Notes under the pieces: generated by a model | Databases searched by the model: none | What the model saw: only the letters and a program-made list of their open reading frames with translations | What the model was told of the DNA's origin: nothing | From: Modestobacter excelsi | GTDB lineage: Bacteria > Actinomycetota > Actinomycetes > Mycobacteriales > Geodermatophilaceae | Length of the DNA stretch: 64,000 nucleotides | NCBI RefSeq assembly: GCF_005930495.1 | Contig: NZ_SJEX01000001.1 | Location: 62,001 to 126,000 of the forward strand | Direction: 5' to 3' | Part shown: positions 21,603 to 44,730 of the stretch, in pieces | Position numbering within the stretch: position 1 is the stretch's first letter | Layout: each line of letters opens with the position of its first letter | Translations under genes and position numbers: made by a program

Positions 21603-21934
21603 CCCCCAGCAGACCTCAGTCCGCACGACGCCGGCACACCGCCGCGAGCCTCCTGGTGGCCAGCGGAGCGAACGTCAAAGCGGTCCAGCGGATGCTCGGG
21701 CACGCCTCCGCCGCGATGACCCTGGACGTCTACTCCGGGCTGTTCGACGACGACCCCGGTGGGCTCGCCGACCGCGTGGACGCCGCCCACGAGGCCCACG
21801 CTTCTTCGCGAACTGTGGGCGCCGTGTGGGTGCGGGACCCGATCGTCAAGATCGCTGATCTTCCACAAGCCCCTGAAGCTGCACATGTAGCGGTGGGGCG
21901 GGTGGGGCTCGAACCCACGACCCAGGGATCATGA
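21603..21934 (+). pseudogene. Tyrosine recombinase (phage integrase) C-terminal fragment
   Basis: Only the C-terminal catalytic core survives: RRRHTAASLLVASGANVKAVQRMLGHASAAMTLDVYSGLFDDD. It contains the box II His/Arg region, the second His in MLGHAS and the nucleophile Tyr in LDVYSGLF. The N-terminal arm-binding and core-binding domains are absent upstream, where the hydrolase remnant begins. The frame runs on into the partial tRNA-Met repeat, giving a spurious tail (RVGLEPTTQGS). An integrase stub reading towards a tRNA 3' end is the normal geometry of an integrated element's attachment end. Confidence 0.82.
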
Positions 21935-22013
21935 GCACTTCCCGCCGGAACGCTGTGCTGACCTGCTCAAACGCAGGTCGCTGGGGAGCGTGCGTCATCC
22001 AGTACCCGGCTGT
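21893..22013 (-). repeat. att-like direct repeat A containing the 3' half of tRNA-Met
   Basis: About 121 bases, roughly 92% identical to 38333-38453. Bases 21894-21937 (minus strand) form the 3' half of an elongator tRNA-Met: anticodon loop with CAT, a five-base variable loop, a T-arm (GTGGG-TTCGAGC-CCCAC) and acceptor strand CCGCCCC. The 5' half of the tRNA is missing; instead the repeat continues into non-tRNA sequence with a hairpin ACCTGC/GCAGGT (21961-21978). It is not a functional tRNA gene. Confidence 0.85.
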
Positions 22014-33836: not shown

Positions 33837-34809
33837 AGACCGTCCGCCAGTAGGTCAACGGATGCGTGGTGATCGTGGTCGGGTGTCCCATCGGTAGAGG
33901 TACCAGGCGGCTCAGAGCAGGGCACGGAGGGTGACGATCACGGCGGCCAGGTTGAGGTAGGCGTCGACGCAGTCCCGGCGGCGTTCGGTACAGCGACGGA
34001 GCTTGCCGAAGTCGTTGAGCCAGGAGTTGGCGCGCTCGACCACCCACCGTCGGCCCACCTGGATCGGTACCGGTTCGCCGCGGTGGGCGATCTCGCCGGC
34101 CATGCCCCGCTGGTGGAGGGCGTCTCGGCAAAGCCGGTAGTCATAGCCTGCGTCCGGGTGGACGGTGACGTCAGCGGGCAGCGGCGCCAAGTCCTTCACC
34201 GCGTCCAACGTCGGCCCGAGCAGCGCGTGGTCGACGGTGTTGGCCGGCGCAGACACCGTGGCCATCGGTATCCCGCCGCCGTCGGTGAGCTGGAAGCGCT
34301 TCATCCCACCTTTGCCCCGGTCGACCGGACTTCGACCAGCGCACTCTTCGCCGCAGGGCGCCTTGGTGGTGCAGCCGTCGACGGCCAGGTGTGCCAGGTC
34401 CAGGCCGATCAGCCGGTCGTAGGCGTCCAGGCAGGCCAGCCGCAGCCGGTCCCAGACACCGAGCCGGATCCACTCGTCGCGGCGACGGCGCATCGTGGTC
34501 GCTGAGCACGAGGAGTCCGCTGTCCGCTCGTAGCCGGCGCCGTACACCAGCGCCTCGACGAGCTTGTCGAACACCACGGCGTCAGCGATGCGCGGGCGGT
34601 GACAACCCAGCGGATGGTCATCGACAGGGGCGGGCAGTTCGGCGAGGAACTGCTCGCGCAGCGGGTCAAGGATGCACGATGGGAGCGCAGGCACGAGCGG
34701 TCCACATCTCACGGAGCGTTAGCACCTTCGCGAGCGTGGCCATCGTGCCTGCCCTCACTTCTCAGCCACGCTGCACCCCACCAAGATCGCGCCTACTGGC
34801 GGACGGTCT
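33837..34809 (-). mobile_element. IS5-family insertion sequence with 18-bp terminal inverted repeats
   Basis: Perfect inverted repeats AGACCGTCCGCCAGTAGG (33837-33854) and its complement (34792-34809) enclose a 973-bp element carrying one transposase gene on the minus strand. No target-site duplication is evident: the left flank reads ...GACCA and the right flank AAGCC.... The element therefore may have lost a flank by deletion or recombination after insertion. Confidence 0.88.
33912..34712 (-). CDS. IS5-family transposase
   Basis: A 266-residue DDE transposase. The N-terminus is a DUF4096-type domain (PPLREQFLAELP-like opening, then RRRDEWIRLGVWDRL). The catalytic triad can be placed at Asp in LAVDGCTTKAP, Asp in VTVHPDAGYDY and Glu in RWVVERANSWLNDF. 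The gene appears complete, sits within perfect terminal repeats and shows no frameshift, so the element may still be active. Confidence 0.9.
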   Translation of the reverse strand: MRCGPLVPALPSCILDPLREQFLAELPAPVDDHPLGCHRPRIADAVVFDKLVEALVYGAGYERTADSSCSATTMRRRRDEWIRLGVWDRLRLACLDAYDRLIGLDLAHLAVDGCTTKAPCGEECAGRSPVDRGKGGMKRFQLTDGGGIPMATVSAPANTVDHALLGPTLDAVKDLAPLPADVTVHPDAGYDYRLCRDALHQRGMAGEIAHRGEPVPIQVGRRWVVERANSWLNDFGKLRRCTERRRDCVDAYLNLAAVIVTLRALL

Positions 34810-35968: not shown

Positions 35969-36732
35969 GAGAGCATCCTTTCGGCGGTCGAGCAGACTTC
36001 GTCGGCGAGAGCTCGGTAGGCGCAAGCGACCGGGCTTGTCGGGGAGGCGAGCACGACCGGCAGCTTGTCCAGGGTGCTGCTGGGCACCCGTCGGGACAGC
36101 GGCACCATGGTCCGCATCAGCGGCACGCCGGTTGCCTGCAGCGCCTCCAGCACCTGGCGGGCGGCGCGGCCGCCCCTGTCCCAGGCGGAGCACGCGGCGC
36201 CGAGCAGCACCGCGGAGGTGTTCTCGTAGGCGCGCTGCTGCTCGATGAAGCCGGCCACCCGGACCACGCCGAGCGCCGATCCCGGGTCGCTGGTGAAGAC
36301 GGTGAGGACGGCATCGGCGGCGCACAGCGCGGCGAGCGTGAGGCCACCGAGGTCGCCGCGGGTGTCCAGAACGACGTGGTCGTACTCCGCCATGAGCGGC
36401 CGCAGGATGCGCCGCACGCTGGTGATCAGGCCGCCGGAATTCGACAGCTGGAGGGCGACGGCTTCCAGAGAGGGGTGCGAAGGCAGGACATCCAACCGGG
36501 GTACGACGTCATGGCGGATGACATCGCGCGCCGATGCGGTCGGGTCCTCCAGGCAGCGGGCGAGGCTGTCGTCGTAGCCCTTGGCCACGACGCCGAACGC
36601 CCGGCCGAGGCTGTCCTGAGGATCGGTGTCGACCGCCAGCACCCTGCCACGGCCGGCCAGCGCCACGGCGAGATTGGCCGCTGTCGTCGACTTGCCGACA
36701 CCGCCCTTGGACGAACAGACAGCCAGTCGCAT
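35965..36732 (-). CDS. ParA-family ATPase
   Basis: A 255-residue deviant Walker ATPase with SSKGGVGKST at residues 7-16, the switch motif AVDTDPQDS and Walker B-like HVVLDTRGD. This is ParA/Soj-like: ATP-dependent dimerisation and nonspecific DNA or membrane binding to position DNA or protein cargo. ATG 36732 starts directly at MRLAVCSSKGG; a GTG at 36738 would add two residues. No parB or parS was identified nearby, and the only coupled gene is the 99-residue partner, so it may position something other than a replicon. Confidence 0.88.
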   Translation of the reverse strand: MRLAVCSSKGGVGKSTTAANLAVALAGRGRVLAVDTDPQDSLGRAFGVVAKGYDDSLARCLEDPTASARDVIRHDVVPRLDVLPSHPSLEAVALQLSNSGGLITSVRRILRPLMAEYDHVVLDTRGDLGGLTLAALCAADAVLTVFTSDPGSALGVVRVAGFIEQQRAYENTSAVLLGAACSAWDRGGRAARQVLEALQATGVPLMRTMVPLSRRVPSSTLDKLPVVLASPTSPVACAYRALADEVCSTAERMLS

Positions 36733-36949
36733 AGGCACGAAGTGTGAGGGCGCTCATACCCCAAGGGGGGCGGGAAGCGCCGGGCGAGAATGCATCGCTC
36801 CACCCCACCTGTCGCAGGCTGCTCGACGTCCCCACCGGCACCGCATCCATGCCGAAGACTTCCCCGCGCGCCTCGTCGCGCTGGGCTCCCGCCCCGGGTG
36901 ACCGCGGTACGCGGGCGGGGAGCTACGGACGGACGCGGCTGGGCACGCG

Positions 36950-36987
36950 GAAGGGCCCGTACCCCGAGAACGGGGTACGGGCCCTTC
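36950..36987. terminator. Very strong terminator hairpin
   Basis: Perfect 16-bp stem (GAAGGGCCCGTACCCC / GGGGTACGGGCCCTTC) with a 6-base loop, about 16 bases after the stop of the ferritin-like gene (minus strand). It insulates that gene from the ParA operon. Confidence 0.85.
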
Positions 36988-37002
36988 GGCAGGGGGTGTT
37001 CG

Positions 37003-37974
37003 TCAGCTGCTGACGCCCACGGCCTCCTTGGCGAGCGAGGCGAGCTGGGTCTGCGCGGCGCTGGCCACGTTCGCCCGGCTCTTGTGGGCCTCCTCGTAGG
37101 AGATGATCACGCGGATGTCGCGCGGCTCCTTCAGGCCCTTGATCGCCTTGATGGCGTCGGCGACCGAGAGGTTGTCGTAGTTCTTGATCGGCAGCTCGTC
37201 GGCCGAGACGTCGCCGAGCTCCTCGCGGGCGGACCGGGCAGCCTCGGCGGCGTCCTTGTTGCCCTCGCGGCGGGCGATCTGCTCAGCGCGGCGCAGCGAG
37301 GCGCTGCGGCCGGCGGTGAGTGTCTCGCGGACGGCGTCGGTGAGCTGCGCGGCGCGGTCGGTGACGGCGGAGAACCGGTCGGAGGTCTCCTCACCGGCCT
37401 GCTTGACGGTGTCCACGGCGTTGTTGACCGTGTACGCCCAGAAGCGGACCGGGGCGTTGACCGTGCGGGCCACGCCGCCGGCGACCTTCTGGACAGGGGT
37501 CGCAACGAGCGCGGCGGGGCCACCGAGGGCGTCCTCGGCGAGCACGACGGTCAGCCACTCGACGGTCGCCTGGTGGGCGCCGATGAGCTTCTCGGCCAGC
37601 CGGCGCACCTGGGTCTCCCCGGCCTGCTCGGCGAGGACCTTGACGTAGGTGGCGCGGTCTAGCAGCTGGTGCTCGAGCGACAGGTCGGTGAGAAGCGCCT
37701 CCTCGAAGGGGGCCGCCTGCTCGAAGGTGGCCTTCAGCGCCGCGGAGAGCCGGCCGAGGGCCGGGGTGACGACGTCCGGGACACCGCCGAGGCCACGGAG
37801 GGCCTCGGTGATCTCGATGGTGCGCGCCGCGGCGTTGTCGGCGTTCTGCGTGAGCTCGCGGCGGACGGCGTCGGTCCGGGCCTGCGAGATGCGGGTGCGC
37901 GCCACCTGCTCCTCGGTCTTGGTGAGGAGCACGATGGCGCGAAGCTGGTTGACGATCTTGCTGTTGTCGGCCAT
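37003..37974 (-). CDS. Ferritin-like domain-containing protein
   Basis: A 323-residue, almost entirely helical protein starting MADNSKIVNQLRAIVLL. Residues ~95-165 look like a ferritin-like four-helix segment (EEALLTDLSLEHQLLDRATYVKVLAEQ ... HQATVEWLTVVLAED), but the ordered Glu-x-x-His metal pairs are sparse. A long coiled-coil-like middle and a conserved C-terminus (KGLKEPRDIRVIISYEEAHKSR) follow. It may be an actinobacterial structural or storage protein; no enzymatic function is claimed. A strong terminator lies downstream. Confidence 0.68.
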   Translation of the reverse strand: MADNSKIVNQLRAIVLLTKTEEQVARTRISQARTDAVRRELTQNADNAAARTIEITEALRGLGGVPDVVTPALGRLSAALKATFEQAAPFEEALLTDLSLEHQLLDRATYVKVLAEQAGETQVRRLAEKLIGAHQATVEWLTVVLAEDALGGPAALVATPVQKVAGGVARTVNAPVRFWAYTVNNAVDTVKQAGEETSDRFSAVTDRAAQLTDAVRETLTAGRSASLRRAEQIARREGNKDAAEAARSAREELGDVSADELPIKNYDNLSVADAIKAIKGLKEPRDIRVIISYEEAHKSRANVASAAQTQLASLAKEAVGVSS

Positions 37975-38332
37975 GTCTTCACTATGCCCCCGAACCGCGC
38001 TTGCTAACTCTTGCAAGCACATTGCTAGCAGTGAGTCCGGTCACGCCCGCTCGGCTGGCTGCTGGCCTACCTCGCCGGGGCCATCGGGTCTGGGCTGCAC
38101 CTCCAGTCCGGCGCAACCTCGGCGCGCCCGCAGACTTCGGTTCCTCGTCTCATGCGGTTACACACTCGCCGACATCGAACGGCAGATGGGACTGCCCCCG
38201 GCCCTGCGTGTAGGTGGCCCATCGCGGTGGAGCGAAGCTCCACCAGGCCCCGGCCTCAATCGCGACCAGTCCAGCCTGCACGAGCGCTGTGCCGCACGTT
38301 CTGCGCCCGCGCTCTGAGCATCTGACCTGCTA
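37975..38332. other. 358-base region without a gene
   Basis: Contains a perfect 8-bp hairpin (GGTGGAGC / GCTCCACC, three-base loop) at 38226-38244 and a short protein-like piece (GYTLADIERQMGLP) that does not extend to a gene. It ends at repeat B. Confidence 0.45.
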
Positions 38333-38453
38333 GTGGGGCGGGTGGGGCTCGAACCCACGACCCAGGGATTATGAGCACTTCCACGCCGAACGCTGTGCTG
38401 ACGTGCGCAAACGCAGGTCGCTGGCGAGCGTGCAGCATCCAGTACCCGGCTGT
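38333..38453 (-). repeat. att-like direct repeat B containing the 3' half of tRNA-Met
   Basis: Second copy of the 121-base repeat. The tRNA part is canonical for elongator tRNA-Met from anticodon to acceptor (loop CTCATAA, T-arm GTGGG-TTCGAGC-CCCAC, acceptor CCGCCCC), but the 5' half needed to pair with these strands is absent. The flanking ~75 bases match copy A with about ten differences, and the ACCTGC/GCAGGT hairpin has one mismatch here. Confidence 0.85.
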
Positions 38454-38579
38454 AACGCGATCCGGCGAAGTTGCCGCTGACGACGATGATCGCTCGGGGC
38501 GAGGCCGATGTCCACGACCGCGGGGCACTAAAAGGCCTACGGAGTCAACCAGCCATCGGGGCGACTTAGCCGTAGGGCT

Positions 38580-39469
38580 GACCACCTCCACTGAACCTGG
38601 GGCGGGACAGCTGTCCAACACGATCCCAAGCCGCACGTCGGCTGGGTGCAGCGAGCGCAGGTAGCGGCGGAAGGCCAAGAACTCGATCCGTCCCTTGCGG
38701 ACCTTGACGTGGCCGTAGAGCCGGTCGGTGGACAGGTGGTAGCCGGCCGGCAGATGCCGCACCCCGTGCGGGCGGATGTAGGTCGCCCGCCGGCGACGGT
38801 GCCGTGGCCGGGCCTGCGCGCCCCTGCCGGCTGCGACCAGCGCCCACTGATGCCCGGGGTGGGGCGGGAGCTTCAGCGGCCCGAACTTGTCCATATGGAT
38901 AACCACGGTCGGATCCCCGGGTATGGGCGCGCTTGCTGTCGGCGATGGCGTAGAGGCCCAGCACCCGGTTCTTCTTGGCCTCGTAGTTAGGATCGGTGCT
39001 GGTCTTCCAGGTCTTCACGGCTTGGAAAGGAGACGCCCTCTTCGCGCAGCAGCACTCGCAGGCCCTCGTGGGGGGATGTCGTCGACCACCCCTCGGCGAC
39101 CAGGAAGTCAGCAACTTCGACAGGCTCCAGGTCGAGAAGGGCAGCCCGTGATCAGCCGGGCGGGCCAACGCGACCTTCCTGATCTCCGCGCGTTGCGCAA
39201 GATCGAACTTCGGGGGGTCGTCCGCCGGCATACTTCGGTTTCAGCGAGTCGAACCCGTCGGTGTTGAAGTTGTGCAGCACGTCCCGGACCCGGTCCGGGC
39301 TGGTGAACGTCACCGCCGCGATCCCGGCCGGATCCATGCCTTGGGCGAACAGCAGCACAATCTGCGCCCGCCGCCAGGTCACCACCGACCCACTGGACCG
39401 CCGGACGATGCGCAACAGCCGATTGCCCTCGTCGCTGCTGATTTTCCGGACCTGCACCCGATGCACCAT
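38580..39469 (-). pseudogene. IS630-family transposase relic
   Basis: The N-terminal DNA-binding part is in one frame (VRKISSDEGNRLLRIVRRSSGSVVTWRRAQIVLLF ... GFDSLKPKYAGGRPP). The middle is in a second frame (LPFSTWSLSKLL ... DPNYEAKKNRVLGLY) and the catalytic part in a third (VVIHMDKFGPLKLPPHPGHQWA ... DRLYGHVKVRKGRIEFLAFRRYLRS). At least two frameshifts are needed. The usual D-E-F-G motif around the first catalytic Asp reads MDKFG, and the last DDE acidic residue is not found. Inactive. Confidence 0.82.
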
Positions 39470-39564
39470 CTCGCATCTCCTGCGGGGAAGACAAGATTGC
39501 ACCAGACGAGAGTCCAGCACCCCAGCTCGGACCGCCCGGGCCAACGTTCACGGCCGTGGCACTA

Positions 39565-40905
39565 GCATTGGCCGCTCCACGGCACCCTGCCTGAGGCTAA
39601 TTGCGCCTGATGGCCGAACAAGCTGGCGGCCAACGTCGCTGGCGACGCCAGGACGCGTCTCCGCCTTAAAGGAGGTCGGTTGGCACGCGGTGACTGTGTG
39701 GCAGCACGACGATCCTGGATCCGCCGCGATATCATTGCTGCTCACGTCGTAGCACGAAGGTGCGAGTGGGTGAACCAAGTCCGAGGACATTGTTCGCAGG
39801 GTCCGGGGCCCGACAAGGCACGGCATCCTGATAGGAACACGCATGAGCGATTGGACCTTAGACCGTTGGTTCGGGATGGCGGGGGTCATCGTCGGCCTGT
39901 TGGGCATCGGGGTGGCCATCTGGACATGGCGCGCAGGCCGAGACGAAAGCGTGCCACGCTATCGAATCGCCACCCATCGCCTCATAGGGCCTTCAGATCC
40001 AACGTCCCCGTTCAGTGCAACGGATGAAAATCTGCACCTAAGCTACGAGTCGATGGCGGTTACCGAAGCATCCAAGGTGTACATCGTCTTTTGGAATGCG
40101 GGAAAAAAGATGCTCGACTGGGAAGCGAACGCCTTAACGGAGGAGCCACTGGCCGTGGAACTGCCTCAAGGAAGTTCGATCCTCGGGGAACCTCGGATCC
40201 TCAAGCAGACACGACCATCGATACACTTCGACGCCCAAAAGCTGGACGGCTGTCCAAATGTTGCACGATTTACCTTCACGTTTCTAGATCGCGGAGACGG
40301 CGCCCTGGTAGAGATGCTTGTCGGTGGGCCGACCCGGGAAATGACGGTGACGGGAGCCTTTAAGGCGTCGAAGCCGTTGAAATCCGACGGTCTGTTGGGT
40401 TTGGCGCCAGACATGCCTTTTCGGGAGAGGTTCTTACGGGAGCTTGTCGGGGCGCTTACCTGGGGGAACGGAGTGGCCACCCCCGTGCTCATCGGCATAC
40501 TGTCGCTTGTGAGTGTCGGGGTCTTTGCCAGCACGAGTCTCCTCGCGGCGGTTATAGCCCTCCCGGTGATTGCAGTATTCTGGATTTGCGTCATGTGCCT
40601 TGTGATTCCTGCACTGAATGCTGCAAGTCCCCAAACTGTCGCATATGGCAACGGGGACAGCAAGAAGACGCCGGCACCCCTTAAAAAGCTGCCGTCGCCC
40701 CTCCAACGGATTCCCGTACCCTTACCTGCTCGCTCTTCCTCCGGCGGACCCCTGCGCCGTTTTATCGCCGATGTGCGAGAGGATGTTGTGCGTGCACGAA
40801 GCCGAGTCCGATAGCACTTCAAGCACCACCGACGGGGGGAAAGCGGCGCGACACCTAGCGGGCTCGGTGAAGGCCGCCGGGGGAAGGGTTCCCAGGGGCC
40901 AATGC
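39565..40905. mobile_element. Candidate TA-flanked mobile cassette with a passenger gene
   Basis: 15-bp perfect inverted repeats GCACTAGCATTGGCC (39559-39573) and GGCCAATGCTAGTGC (40897-40911) surround this segment. Reading each as GCAC-TA-GCATTGGCC places a TA dinucleotide at both borders, as for Tc1/IS630-type insertions. Removing the segment would leave the palindrome GCACTAGTGC, a credible TA target. The inside lacks a transposase and holds one lower-GC gene, so it resembles a non-autonomous element mobilised in trans, possibly by an IS630-family enzyme. Confidence 0.5.
39843..40814 (+). CDS. Two-helix membrane protein of unknown function, foreign composition
   Basis: 323 residues. One N-terminal helix (GMAGVIVGLLGIGVAIWTW, about residues 11-30) is followed by a ~170-residue beta-rich domain (YIVFWNAGKKMLDWEANALTEEPL ... 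FTFTFLDRGDGALVEMLV), two adjacent helices near residues 218-260 (ILSLVSVGVFASTSLLAAVI, FWICVMCLVIPAL) and a basic, Pro-rich C-terminus. Codons such as AAA, GAA, TTA and ATA are far more frequent than in neighbours, indicating recent acquisition. I do not recognise the family. Orphan membrane proteins of this shape are common in accessory regions, including defence-like loci, but no such role can be shown here. Confidence 0.75.
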   Translation: MSDWTLDRWFGMAGVIVGLLGIGVAIWTWRAGRDESVPRYRIATHRLIGPSDPTSPFSATDENLHLSYESMAVTEASKVYIVFWNAGKKMLDWEANALTEEPLAVELPQGSSILGEPRILKQTRPSIHFDAQKLDGCPNVARFTFTFLDRGDGALVEMLVGGPTREMTVTGAFKASKPLKSDGLLGLAPDMPFRERFLRELVGALTWGNGVATPVLIGILSLVSVGVFASTSLLAAVIALPVIAVFWICVMCLVIPALNAASPQTVAYGNGDSKKTPAPLKKLPSPLQRIPVPLPARSSSGGPLRRFIADVREDVVRARSRVR

Positions 40906-41209
40906 TAGTGCGCTAGGGAAGTCGGCGTGTTCGAGGCCGACGAAGGTCCTGAGGACGTCGCCGAGGCAGATACGCGAGCGTCTGCATTTCCGGCAAGTGC
41001 ATCGGCCAGACCTCGTCGACGGAGCCGTCGTTGTTCGCTCCGCATCATCACCAAGAATGAGCTAGTCCGTCTGCAGTCGTGCGGGATCCGAGGAGGGTCG
41101 GCTCCAACCTGCCGTCCGTTCTTAGGGTGACCATGTCGCTGACTCGAGTCGTCGTCGGAGCGCGACTGGAAGAACCGGGGAGTGGCCGCGTCATGGACGA
41201 CGCCCTGCC
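40906..41209. other. 304-base region, no supported gene
   Basis: Begins with the TA of the right cassette border. Open frames on either strand lack protein-like composition. Confidence 0.5.
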
Positions 41210-43990
41210 TCACGGGTTTGCGTCCGATAGGGCTCGGTGGAGGTCTCGTCGGGAACGGACGCCGAGCTTCGCGAACACCTTGCGGAGGTGCCATTCGACG
41301 GTTCGGGCGCTGATGAAGAGTCGGGCTCCGATCTCCGTGTTGGTCAGGCCGTCGCTAGCCAGGCGGGCGATCTGCGCTTCCTGGACGGTGAGGTTGTCCC
41401 GCGTCTCAGCGGGGCGCGTGCCGACGCTTGCTCCCGTCGCGACCATTGCGTTTCGGGCTCGTTCGGCGAACCCCCCTATGCCCATGGCAGTGAACAACCT
41501 GTGCGCGATGCCCGACTCACTGAACGCCTCCGGCTGACGGTTCTTCTCCAGCAGCCACTCGCCGTACAGGAGGTGTGCTCGGGCCAGCTCGGCACGCACC
41601 CGAGCTCGAGCCAGGTGCTCGATGGCCTCCCGGTACGCCGCCTCAGCAACGTCTCCGTCCTCGAGCAGGGCGCGCGCCCGAGCCTGCATCCCCAGCGCCC
41701 ACTCGGTTCCGCTCGCGAGTGCCTTGCTGCTGAGTCGCTGGAACGCGTCTGTCGCCAAGTCCATCCGTCGCGCCCGGGCCGCGGACTCGACGAGTTCGGT
41801 GAGCCCCCAGTTGTGGGCCACAAGTTCGCCCGGGTCGACGCACGCGTTGAGCGCTGCCGCGCAGGCCTCGTCGTACTCGCCGGACCCGTTGAGGAGGACG
41901 GCCCGCGCGTATTCGCAGACGGCGACCCCGATCCCCTCGCGGCGGGACCTGGCCTCGCGCAGCTTGGCGTGGATCAGTTGTGGGAGCGCGCGAGTGTCAC
42001 CGCTCCACGCGCCGTAGGTGAGGGCGCCGTAGGCGGTCTCGCTAAGGCCTTCCACCTCTCGCACCAAGCGCGCCTCCTCGACGAGCGCGGCAGCCGCGGT
42101 CAGCTCACCGCAGAAGACGAGTATGGGGATGAAGGAGCTGAGGGCGAGTGGCAGTTCGCTGAGTGCCCCTGTCTTGCGGACGGTGCTCAGTTGCTGCTCG
42201 GACAGGAGGTAGGCGCCCTCGTCGTCCCATAGTTCCAGCGCCAGGACGCTGCCTTGCCAGAGCAGGTGCAGGCCCTTGCTCGTCACGTCCGCTTCCTGGC
42301 GCAGACTGGCCAAGGCGCGCCTGCCCACAGGAACCGCCGCGGCGTAGTCATCGGCGAGGTCAGCAAAGGCTTGGAGCAGCTGATCCCGGGGCCGGAGCAC
42401 CGCATCCTCTCGTGGCAGCGCCGTTCGTGCTGCCCTTGCCAGCTCCTCCACCGTGACGCCCTCGCTGAGTCGGGCCGCGAACTGGGCTGCCGAGAAGGCG
42501 TCCAAGTAGGTCTCGCGCGCCAGCTCCGGATCCAGTGGCTGTAGCCGACGAGCCGCTGCCAGCAGGAGCGGGGCCGCCTCGTTGCCCCGTCTCGAGACGA
42601 GAGCCAGCTGAGCGCGCACGACGTCCATCCGCGCATGGTGCGGCTCGTCGAGCGGTCCCTCGCCGGCGACGGCAAGCATTGCTCGCGCGGTGTCGAGGGC
42701 GCCCGCTCTCAGCTTGGCGAGGGCCGCATCCAGGGCGCGTCGGGTTCGAGTCGCCGGATCCGGCGTCAGTTCCGTTGCTCGGGTCAGGAAGGCGGCGGCC
42801 GCGGCGAGGCCTCCTCGCGCTTGGGCGCGGCCGGCCGAACGCTCGAGCTCGGCGGCCACCTCCTCGTCCGGGCCCAGCGTTCCGCACGCCCGGTGCCAGG
42901 CCCGGCGATCCGGGTCGACGTCCGCGTCGGTCACCGCGGCCAGGGCGCGATGGACTCGGAGACGGTCGACGGCGGGAGCGGAACGGTAGGCGGCCGATCG
43001 CACTAAGGGATGGGCGAACACGACGGTTCCGCCCATCCGAAGGAGTCCGGCGTCCACCGCCTGCTCTAGTGCTGCCGTGTCGACGCCGAGCTTCGTGGCC
43101 GCACGGCGGAGGAGCGCGGGATCACCGAGTGGCTCAGCGGCCGCTGTCAGGACGAGCTGTCGGGTGTCTGGTGGGAGCAGCGCGAGGCGCTGGACGTAGC
43201 TCTGCTCGATCTTCCCGGCCACCGGTCGGTCATCGAGCAACCCGAAGCCTCCGGCGAGTTGCGCTGTGGTCCAGGTCCGGGGCAGCTCCAGCAGTGCCAG
43301 CGGGTTGCCGTGGCTCTCCGCGACGATCCGATCCGCGACGCCCGGGTCCAACGGCCCGCGAACGCTGGACAACAGGAGCGTTCGGGCGTCGGCGCTGTTC
43401 AGCCCGCGGATGCGCATCTCAGGGGCCCCTGCCAGGAAGTCGTCCCCCGCACCCGTCCGGACCGCACACACCAGCGCGACAGGCTCCGCAAAGAGCCGTC
43501 GAGCGACGAAGGACAGGACCTGCGCGGAGGCGCGGTCCATCCATTGGGCGTCGTCGACGACGCAGGCCAGGGGTCCTTCTTCAGCGGCCGCCGCAATCAG
43601 CGAGAGCGTGGCAAGATCCACCATGAGCCGGTCGGGGGCCGGACTGGAGCTTCGCCCTAGCACCGTCGCGAGCGCATCCCGTTGGCGGACCGGCAGTCCG
43701 TCGAGATGCTCGAGCAACGGCCCGCACAGCTGGTGGAGGCCGCTGTAAGGCAGCTCCATCTCGGACTCGACGCCTGCCGCCCTGACGACACGCATACCCG
43801 CCATCTGGTCGGACAGGTAGGCCAACATCGCGCTCTTGCCCACCCCGGGAGCGCCCCGCAGGACCAGGACCCGGCTCTCACCGACGAGCACGTCCTTCAC
43901 GAGGCGGTTCAAAACCTGATGTTCGCTGCGGCGTCCCAGCAACGCCGAGGGATGGACGTGGCGTCCTCCAGTCGGCGACGAGGAGCTCAC
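41210..43990 (-). CDS. LAL-type LuxR family ATP-dependent regulator (copy 1)
   Basis: 926 residues. N-terminal AAA/STAND ATPase: Walker A GAPGVGKS (46-53) and Walker B LACVVDDAQW (141-150). A long helical/TPR-like sensor region spans residues 250-850. The C-terminal LuxR helix-turn-helix reads LTVQEAQIARLASDGLTNTEIGARLFISARTVEWHLRKVFAKLGVRSR. LAL regulators are large ATP-dependent activators, many controlling secondary metabolism or stress genes; the ligand here is unknown. It is clearly paralogous to the regulators at 52846-55623 and 63071-64000, all on the same strand. GTG start at 43990. Confidence 0.92.
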   Translation of the reverse strand: MSSSSPTGGRHVHPSALLGRRSEHQVLNRLVKDVLVGESRVLVLRGAPGVGKSAMLAYLSDQMAGMRVVRAAGVESEMELPYSGLHQLCGPLLEHLDGLPVRQRDALATVLGRSSSPAPDRLMVDLATLSLIAAAAEEGPLACVVDDAQWMDRASAQVLSFVARRLFAEPVALVCAVRTGAGDDFLAGAPEMRIRGLNSADARTLLLSSVRGPLDPGVADRIVAESHGNPLALLELPRTWTTAQLAGGFGLLDDRPVAGKIEQSYVQRLALLPPDTRQLVLTAAAEPLGDPALLRRAATKLGVDTAALEQAVDAGLLRMGGTVVFAHPLVRSAAYRSAPAVDRLRVHRALAAVTDADVDPDRRAWHRACGTLGPDEEVAAELERSAGRAQARGGLAAAAAFLTRATELTPDPATRTRRALDAALAKLRAGALDTARAMLAVAGEGPLDEPHHARMDVVRAQLALVSRRGNEAAPLLLAAARRLQPLDPELARETYLDAFSAAQFAARLSEGVTVEELARAARTALPREDAVLRPRDQLLQAFADLADDYAAAVPVGRRALASLRQEADVTSKGLHLLWQGSVLALELWDDEGAYLLSEQQLSTVRKTGALSELPLALSSFIPILVFCGELTAAAALVEEARLVREVEGLSETAYGALTYGAWSGDTRALPQLIHAKLREARSRREGIGVAVCEYARAVLLNGSGEYDEACAAALNACVDPGELVAHNWGLTELVESAARARRMDLATDAFQRLSSKALASGTEWALGMQARARALLEDGDVAEAAYREAIEHLARARVRAELARAHLLYGEWLLEKNRQPEAFSESGIAHRLFTAMGIGGFAERARNAMVATGASVGTRPAETRDNLTVQEAQIARLASDGLTNTEIGARLFISARTVEWHLRKVFAKLGVRSRRDLHRALSDANP

Positions 43991-44319
43991 CGGACCGCCC
44001 TTCCACGACGTGTCGAAGCACTGGCGGGATGGCGGGGGAGTCGCTCACCGTTATGCGCTGACGTCTTCACGCCGCAGCTCCCCAGCGATGCAGGCCCTGC
44101 TGGACGCTCGACAGGTTAGGACTGTCACCTGGGTGACGTCGCGGCTGGCGCCGCGGCGACTCCGACCTGGCGTCCCGTCGCTCCTCGCAGTAAGGGGGCA
44201 CCGACGGCAGGGTGGGGGAGCGGCTGAGGCGACGCGGTGCAGGCGGGCATGAGCGGACTCCCGGACGCCACAACTCGATCAACGACCTGGCTGACGGCAG
44301 ACGACGCACACCCGGGGCC
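43991..44319. other. 329-base region upstream of the LAL regulator
   Basis: No convincing coding sequence. It should contain the promoter of the minus-strand regulator and the 3' side of the decayed gene to its right. Confidence 0.5.
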
Positions 44320-44730
44320 TCAGCGAGGTCTCCAGCGATGTCGGCGCGTGGTGAGGCGCCAGGTGCCGCAGTGAAGGCCAGTCCAGTCCGCGCCCGGATC
44401 GCCGTCGCCCGGGCCCTGCGCCGCGGTGTTCGGCTGGGTTTCCCAGGCTGGCGGGTCGGTGCGCTCAAGGTGCTGACGGATTGCCGCGACGCTGAGCGCC
44501 AGGCCCTCGAGTGCCTCGACGGCGCGCGTGGCGAGTGCAGAGGTCAGGTTCTCGCGCTGCTGGCGGCGAGTGGGCTCGCGGTGGCCCTGTGCGGCGTCAG
44601 TCTGGCCGCGCGGGCGAGGCGTGGACTCGGCCCACGCCTCGCCGCCGCTTCGCAGATCGACGAACAGCTCGCGCCTCGGCTGCGCCTGTTCGAAGAATTC
44701 ACCCGAGGGTCAGGCCGGGTTGGTCGACAT
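44320..44730 (-). pseudogene. Small protein gene with a stop at codon 7
   Basis: ATG 44730 follows GGAGAGG at good spacing and begins MSTNPA, then TGA at 44710-44712. The same frame then continues uninterrupted for about 129 codons of protein-like sequence: PSGEFFEQAQPRRELFVDLRSGGEAWAES ... TRRQQRENLTSALATRAVEALEGLALSVAAIRQHLERTDPPAW. No alternative start exists between the stop and this body. A single CGA (Arg) to TGA transition would explain it. The family is not recognised; the helical C-half suggests a coiled-coil or DNA-binding adaptor. Confidence 0.5.

Follow-up and report, generated by a model that had tools for sequence, protein, structure and literature searches.

A 64,000 nt stretch of the Modestobacter excelsi genome (contig NZ_SJEX01000001.1, positions 62,001–126,000; hereafter "the window", with coordinates counted from its first base) contains, at 39559–40911, a perfect 15 bp inverted repeat that encloses 1.34 kb of DNA and a single gene of foreign composition. 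We put the probability at roughly 55% that this is a transposase-less cassette of the mobile insertion cassette (MIC) type, or the relic of one, bounded by CTAG/TA and situated beside a relic of an IS630-family insertion sequence (IS). As such, the cassette would be an already known kind of mobile element, now probably reduced to a single-copy, immobile relic. The case is built on (i) the structure of the repeat, part of which derives from the neighbouring IS630 element, (ii) the composition of the enclosed gene, and (iii) the rarity in this genome of inverted repeats that carry CTAG.

The inverted repeat and the adjoining IS630 end

The two arms of the repeat, GCACTAGCATTGGCC (39559–39573) and GGCCAATGCTAGTGC (40897–40911), both given on the forward strand, are exact inverted copies of each other, as a preliminary description of this locus had it; in extended form, the arms reach 18 nt at 94%. 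The left arm consists of GCAC (39559–39562), TA (39563–39564) and GCATTGGCC (39565–39573), while the right arm reads GGCCAATGC, TA and GTGC. Both ends of the cassette are thus bordered by TA, or by CTAG. The left TA lies within a CTAG at 39562–39565, whose C belongs to the IS630 terminus and whose TA is both the dinucleotide targeted by IS630 and the left boundary of the proposed cassette. The right TA (40906–40907) lies within a CTAG at 40905–40908, and a further CTAG is found at 40913. We give the cassette terminus as GCATTGGCC(N)CT, bounded by CTAG/TA.

The IS630 relic that had been proposed to abut the cassette on its left is confirmed. It occupies 38609–39562 on the reverse strand, is frameshifted and has lost its 3' part; its 5' terminus, ...GGCCGTGGCAC, lies at 39552–39562. 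The relic shows 84% DNA identity (815 of 971 alignment columns) to a copy in a relative from the same genus, in an alignment that reaches 39572, and the open reading frame (ORF) at 39152–39544 matches HTH_29/HTH_23. Homologous IS630 copies—from relatives, from contig C9 of the same genome and from plasmids—start C-TA-GTGCC... and finish ...GGCAC-TA-G, with a C preceding the TA in all 12 of the homologous ends identified by TAGTGC (the count leaves out L100 and L101, which are duplicate loci, as well as TAGTGC sites away from IS630 ends; it obtained no end from L027 and is blind to ends that lack TAGTGC). Because the homologous copies define the end of the element, GCAC at 39559–39562 is the relic's own terminus, and the TA at 39563–39564 its target. 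Therefore, only the left TA and GCATTGGCC are independent of IS630, and the cassette's own repeat is taken to be TA plus GCATTGGCC: a short repeat of 11 bp (TA + 9) out of the original 15. The C-TA-G context of the relic agrees with the work of Tenzen and Ohtsubo (1991), the title of which reportedly describes an IS630-associated transposon that prefers TA within CTAG.

The palindrome GCACTAGTGC, earlier put forward as a reconstructed Tc1/IS630-type target, does not hold as such; half of it is IS630, and the whole is equivalent to the IS630 end joined to the sequence adjoining on the right. If the cassette was inserted, the site without it would have read IS630 ...GGCAC-TA-GTGCGCTAGGG. On this view, two orders of events are conceivable: insertion of the cassette into the CTAG that an IS630 end supplies, or insertion of IS630 into the CTAG at the end of the cassette.

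Two further points concern the surroundings of the relic. Firstly, the closest IS630 copy can be aligned past the terminus, as CTAG--TTGGC; this extension is not common to the other copies read, and so was taken for chance. Secondly, a second IS630-like terminus, TAGTGCCCCGCGGTCGTGG, lies at 38530 on the reverse strand, ~80 bp to the left of the relic and without a recognised transposase.

The right arm can be written C-TA-GTGCGC-TA-G, and IS630 ends start TA-GTGCC, a resemblance that would fit two IS630-type events: a copy once present at the right CTAG would have been lost, leaving the footprint CTA-GTGCGC-TAG (40905–40916), with GCAC and GTGC as remnants on either side of a native segment. 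However, CTAGTGC occurs also at 43066 within a LuxR-family gene, and the match between GCATTGGCC and GGCCAATGC goes unexplained; we hold this scenario to be very improbable.

How could the cassette have moved? The earlier proposal of a non-autonomous cassette mobilised by IS630 survives in part: the interval is bounded by CTAG/TA in the manner of two real ISs (see below), and its repeat is unlikely to have arisen purely by chance, but the IS630 termini (GTGCCGCGGC...) do not match those of the cassette. On these grounds, IS630 was rejected as the evident mobiliser. We propose that mobilisation took place in trans, at a CTAG site, through some transposase that recognised the cassette termini. 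No transposase was recognised within 39565–40905 (neither a DDE transposase nor a fragment), in agreement with the preliminary description.

Alternatively, the interval could be a degenerate autonomous IS or composite element, in which the transposase was replaced or deleted, the inner repeats decayed, and the gene arrived later. The shortness of the remaining termini, and the occurrence of CTAG-bounded IS982 and IS701 elements in the same genome, are in keeping with such an origin; against it stand the lack of any recognised transposase fragment inside, the fact that the gene and its leader fill the interval, and the failure to find an IS with these exact termini. We consider a degenerate IS improbable.

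A parallel for the proposed arrangement is found on contig C9 of the same genome (G000:C9). Here, L139 1483–3888 carries an end-to-end chain, IS630-CTAG-IS982-CTAG-IS701-CTAG, in which the sister IS630 ends ...GGCAC-TAG and adjoins the IS982 interval. The IS982 element (L139 1483–2479) has termini (CTAG)ACGAGTAAGTCC and a transposase split into two ORFs (NF033520, E = 9.7e-32; 110.5 bits, under the curated cut-off of 130), and AC, the outermost bases of its repeat, derive from the neighbouring elements. The IS701 element (L139 2475–3888; transposase NF033540, E = 1.2e-131) has termini TACTGCAACGGCA and CTAG on both sides, the left one (2475) being common to IS982. Among plasmid-borne IS982 copies (four read of 58 records matched), CTAG is present at both ends in L164 and L166 and at the sole end seen in L163; L165 has CTAG at neither end printed. 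Since CTAG-bounded elements stand end to end beside this type of IS630, a CTAG-bounded element beside the relic in the window is credible.

The enclosed gene and its relatives

The cassette carries one gene, on the forward strand at 39843–40814, encoding a 323 amino acid protein with a predicted N-terminal hydrophobic segment, a central domain bearing W-N-x-G, and C-terminal hydrophobic segments. In line with the earlier account of one gene with lower GC, GC content is 0.584 in the gene and 0.64–0.71 in neighbouring segments; third-position GC is 0.64, the lowest among the selected ORFs (0.65–0.97 in the others; the selection kept only ORFs in which third-position GC is clearly above second-position GC). 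The low GC is confined to the gene: the first 278 bp of the cassette are at 0.637, and the last 91 bp at 0.703. The gene is compositionally foreign.

Relatives of the protein are few. Among 97 genomes, its own included, the only match was in its own genome, and searches of further genomes of the genus and the family did not recover the gene. A search of 396 genomes of the phylum gave one relative (E = 7.9e-7); 11 further genomes of 13 were weak (E = 0.0015–0.0094) and were left unused. With a five-member profile, 298 genomes of the order yielded a single match beyond the protein's own (E = 2e-21), which corresponds to a locus also recorded under Micromonospora arborensis. A six-member profile, which already included the G327 member, added one more of the 396 genomes (E = 1.7e-14) beyond G327 and the genome under study. 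On plasmids, relatives at 20–28% identity occur in Agrobacterium fabrum and Paraburkholderia. When six members are aligned and compared by eye, the W-N of the central domain and the hydrophobic C-terminal stretches are common to all, and the full W-N-x-G to five; the N-terminal hydrophobic stretch is likewise seen in five, and is absent from the G327 ORF as called.

The protein has no accepted match in Pfam, NCBIfam or PADLOC—sub-threshold Pfam matches to AA_permease (0.0053) and DUF2530 (0.054) were not accepted—or among PDB sequences, phages, viral contigs and the genome_contigs set; the one exception came with the Micromonospora relative as query, which found its own locus. The suggestion of a two-helix membrane protein is roughly right by hydropathy, which gives one N-terminal and two C-terminal stretches (for the window protein only), but both fold predictions are of low confidence (mean predicted local distance difference test score of 45.3 with one sequence and 39.0 with two). 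On these comparisons, the protein belongs to a rare, scattered and unannotated family of putative membrane proteins. Its function can only be guessed at; the protein may be anchored in the membrane and belong to the mobile gene pool.

The distant homologue on the At plasmid of A. fabrum C58 (L080 1–4651) lies ~2 kb past genes annotated as an ATP-dependent endonuclease and an ATP-dependent helicase. Such a pair is also a feature of Gabija defence systems.

Chance, copies and neighbouring features

The most serious competing explanation is that the repeat arose by chance. IS630 would have inserted into an ordinary CTAG with the flank TAGCATTGGCC, an unrelated GGCCAATGCTAGTGC would happen to lie 1.3 kb away, and the gene would be a horizontally acquired neighbour. 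We regard this as unlikely, though it is the second most probable reading. The length of the repeat is, by itself, not special. Eight perfect inverted repeats of at least 15 bp with spans of up to 3 kb, short hairpins included, occur in the window (dinucleotide shuffles of the window: mean 1.3, maximum 4 in 40), and control DNA from the same genome holds 43 in 682.7 kb (spans of 200–2000), or ~4 per 64 kb, compared with 4 in the window. Further, four of the 15 left-arm bases are the IS630 terminus, and there are 465 pairs of CTAG sites in the window, among which the cassette pair leads with 11 further matching bases and the runner-up has 9.

Composition tells a different story. Most perfect repeats of at least 15 bp are GC-rich, unlike that of the cassette. 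Only two in the window contain at least six A/T—the cassette repeat and a true IS5 terminus—while the control has three in 682.7 kb, falling to one in 665.9 kb once contig C9 is excluded; of 60 simulated 64 kb sequences (third-order Markov), 3 contained one or more. CTAG is scarce in this genome, at 0.19 per kb in the control versus 0.48 per kb in the window. Among 600 local simulations of 8 kb at each order, none at order 2 and one at order 3 produced a repeat of 15 bp or more with CTAG; with the limit lowered to 12 bp, 5 did so at either order. Over 747 kb of the genome (the window plus the 682.7 kb control), only three inverted repeats of 11 bp or more carry CTAG (spans of 200–2500), and the other two are real IS termini, those of IS982 and IS701 on contig C9. 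In addition, the cassette repeat falls on an IS end, and the gene within it has the lowest third-position GC of the listed ORFs. These results make a chance origin of the repeat unlikely. CTAG is also locally dense around the cassette, 12 of the window's 31 sites falling within the 8 kb at 36000–44000 versus 0.19 per kb in the control.

A number of observations weigh against a mobile cassette, several of which also favour chance. The CTAG criterion was picked after the repeat had been seen, and hence the tests are post hoc; contig C9 was fetched for its IS630 copy, and the control without it (665.9 kb) contains no CTAG-bearing repeats. The search for further copies used two exact words from the cassette end, the 12-mer CTAGCATTGGCC and the 11-mer TAGCATTGGCC (the inverted partner of which is GGCCAATGCTA), and the same termini around other cargo did not turn up: exact CTAGCATTGGCC pairs are absent from the 22 other genus genomes and from the 393 others of a class sample (any match in 16 of 394), as are exact TAGCATTGGCC pairs from the 111 other family genomes (any match in 4 of 112). 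For the right flank, the 22 other genus genomes offer no relative at the DNA level, so no empty site is visible there. No cognate IS was found: the IS630, IS982, IS701 and IS5 termini read in this genome, a comparison covering part of its ISs, do not match the cassette. Longer degenerate terminal repeats within the cassette were rejected, since 813 of 2942 random pairs scored at least as high as the plausible gapped alignment of this inner extension, which is not significant. Counted alike, the terminus extends 8–9 bp beyond CTAG/TA in the cassette versus 12, 13 and 18 bp in three ISs read in this genome, and the ISY100 transposase protects and probably needs 24 bp (PMC2170065), compared with 8–11 bp in the cassette. 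Finally, within 500 bp, repeats with CTAG do not flank any of the other five members of the gene family; four have no flanking repeats of at least 10 bp, and the Micromonospora member has one of 12 bp without CTAG. The scarcity of flanking repeats among the relatives indicates that the family is not habitually cassette-borne.

Within its own 5.26 Mb genome, CTAGCATTGGCC is found in exact form at the two arms only; allowing one mismatch adds a single unpaired site, versus 29 for the reversed control word. Neither the cassette DNA nor the right flank has a relative in the plasmid collection. A 16-base pattern matched 49 stretches of viral contigs, once each, with ~37 expected by chance on a rough estimate; being near chance expectation, these matches were set aside. 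No RNA families were detected in 36000–44500 at E up to 0.1.

Elsewhere in the window, two 121 bp direct repeats, 93% identical (21893–22013 and 38333–38453), bracket 16.4 kb that includes a ParA-like gene, an IS5 element, a GGDEF/EAL gene and a sortase. We read the repeats as including a tRNA-like sequence of which the 3' half is present (ARAGORN reports no whole tRNA), suggesting that the 16.4 kb is an integrated element. The IS5-family element (33837–34809) has 18 bp perfect terminal inverted repeats and a transposase gene at 33912–34712 on the reverse strand (NF033580, E = 3.9e-36). At a separate locus, L142 5221–6523, the 19 bp word GATCAGGTCACCTGATCAC recurs as an inverted copy 1.3 kb away, and the flanks of the two are similar.

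Comparison with known mobile elements

If the transposase-less cassette is real, it adds a single-gene passenger cassette for a non-model actinobacterium, and shows that CTAG-specific ISs can nest at each other's ends, thereby counterfeiting or blurring terminal repeats and target duplications. If it is not, the locus serves as a caution: about a quarter of a perfect repeat (here, 4 of 15 bases) can stem from the end of a neighbouring element. A bolder version, which we think doubtful, is that this is the first representative seen of a whole family of transposase-less cassettes that target CTAG, have GCATTGGCC termini, are moved by some transposase acting on them and spread a rare membrane protein, and that the CTAG at an IS630 end docks unrelated CTAG-specific elements end to end, as in the chain on contig C9.

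The closest likeness is to the MICs, for which our comparison draws on PMC3913671 and PMC3129680. Like these, the cassette has inverted-repeat brackets, a passenger gene and no transposase, and a short target duplication is possible. The mic-qnrD cassette has 24 bp imperfect repeats and a 2 bp CA duplication (PMC3913671), compared with 8–11 bp repeats here and a target duplication that is confounded by the IS630 terminus. Further, MIC231A1 is moved by the IS231A transposase, while no matching IS is known for the cassette.

The IS630/Tc1-mariner group offers a second comparison. ISY100 inserts at TA and has 24 bp repeats (PMC2170065); the boundaries of the cassette are TA within CTAG, the left one being shared with the relic, and an IS630 member adjoins it. 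However, the IS630 termini here read GTGCCGCGGC... and those of the cassette GCATTGGCC, and the cassette is without a transposase.

The third comparison is with IS701. Target duplications are given as exactly four bp in almost all elements of this family (PMC2266710), and as 4–9 bp for two Geobacillus members (PMC8024623). The IS701 terminus in this genome, TACTGCAACGGCA, differs from that of the cassette, CATTGGCC, and the cassette carries no transposase; yet, like the cassette, this IS701 element is flanked by CTAG on both sides.
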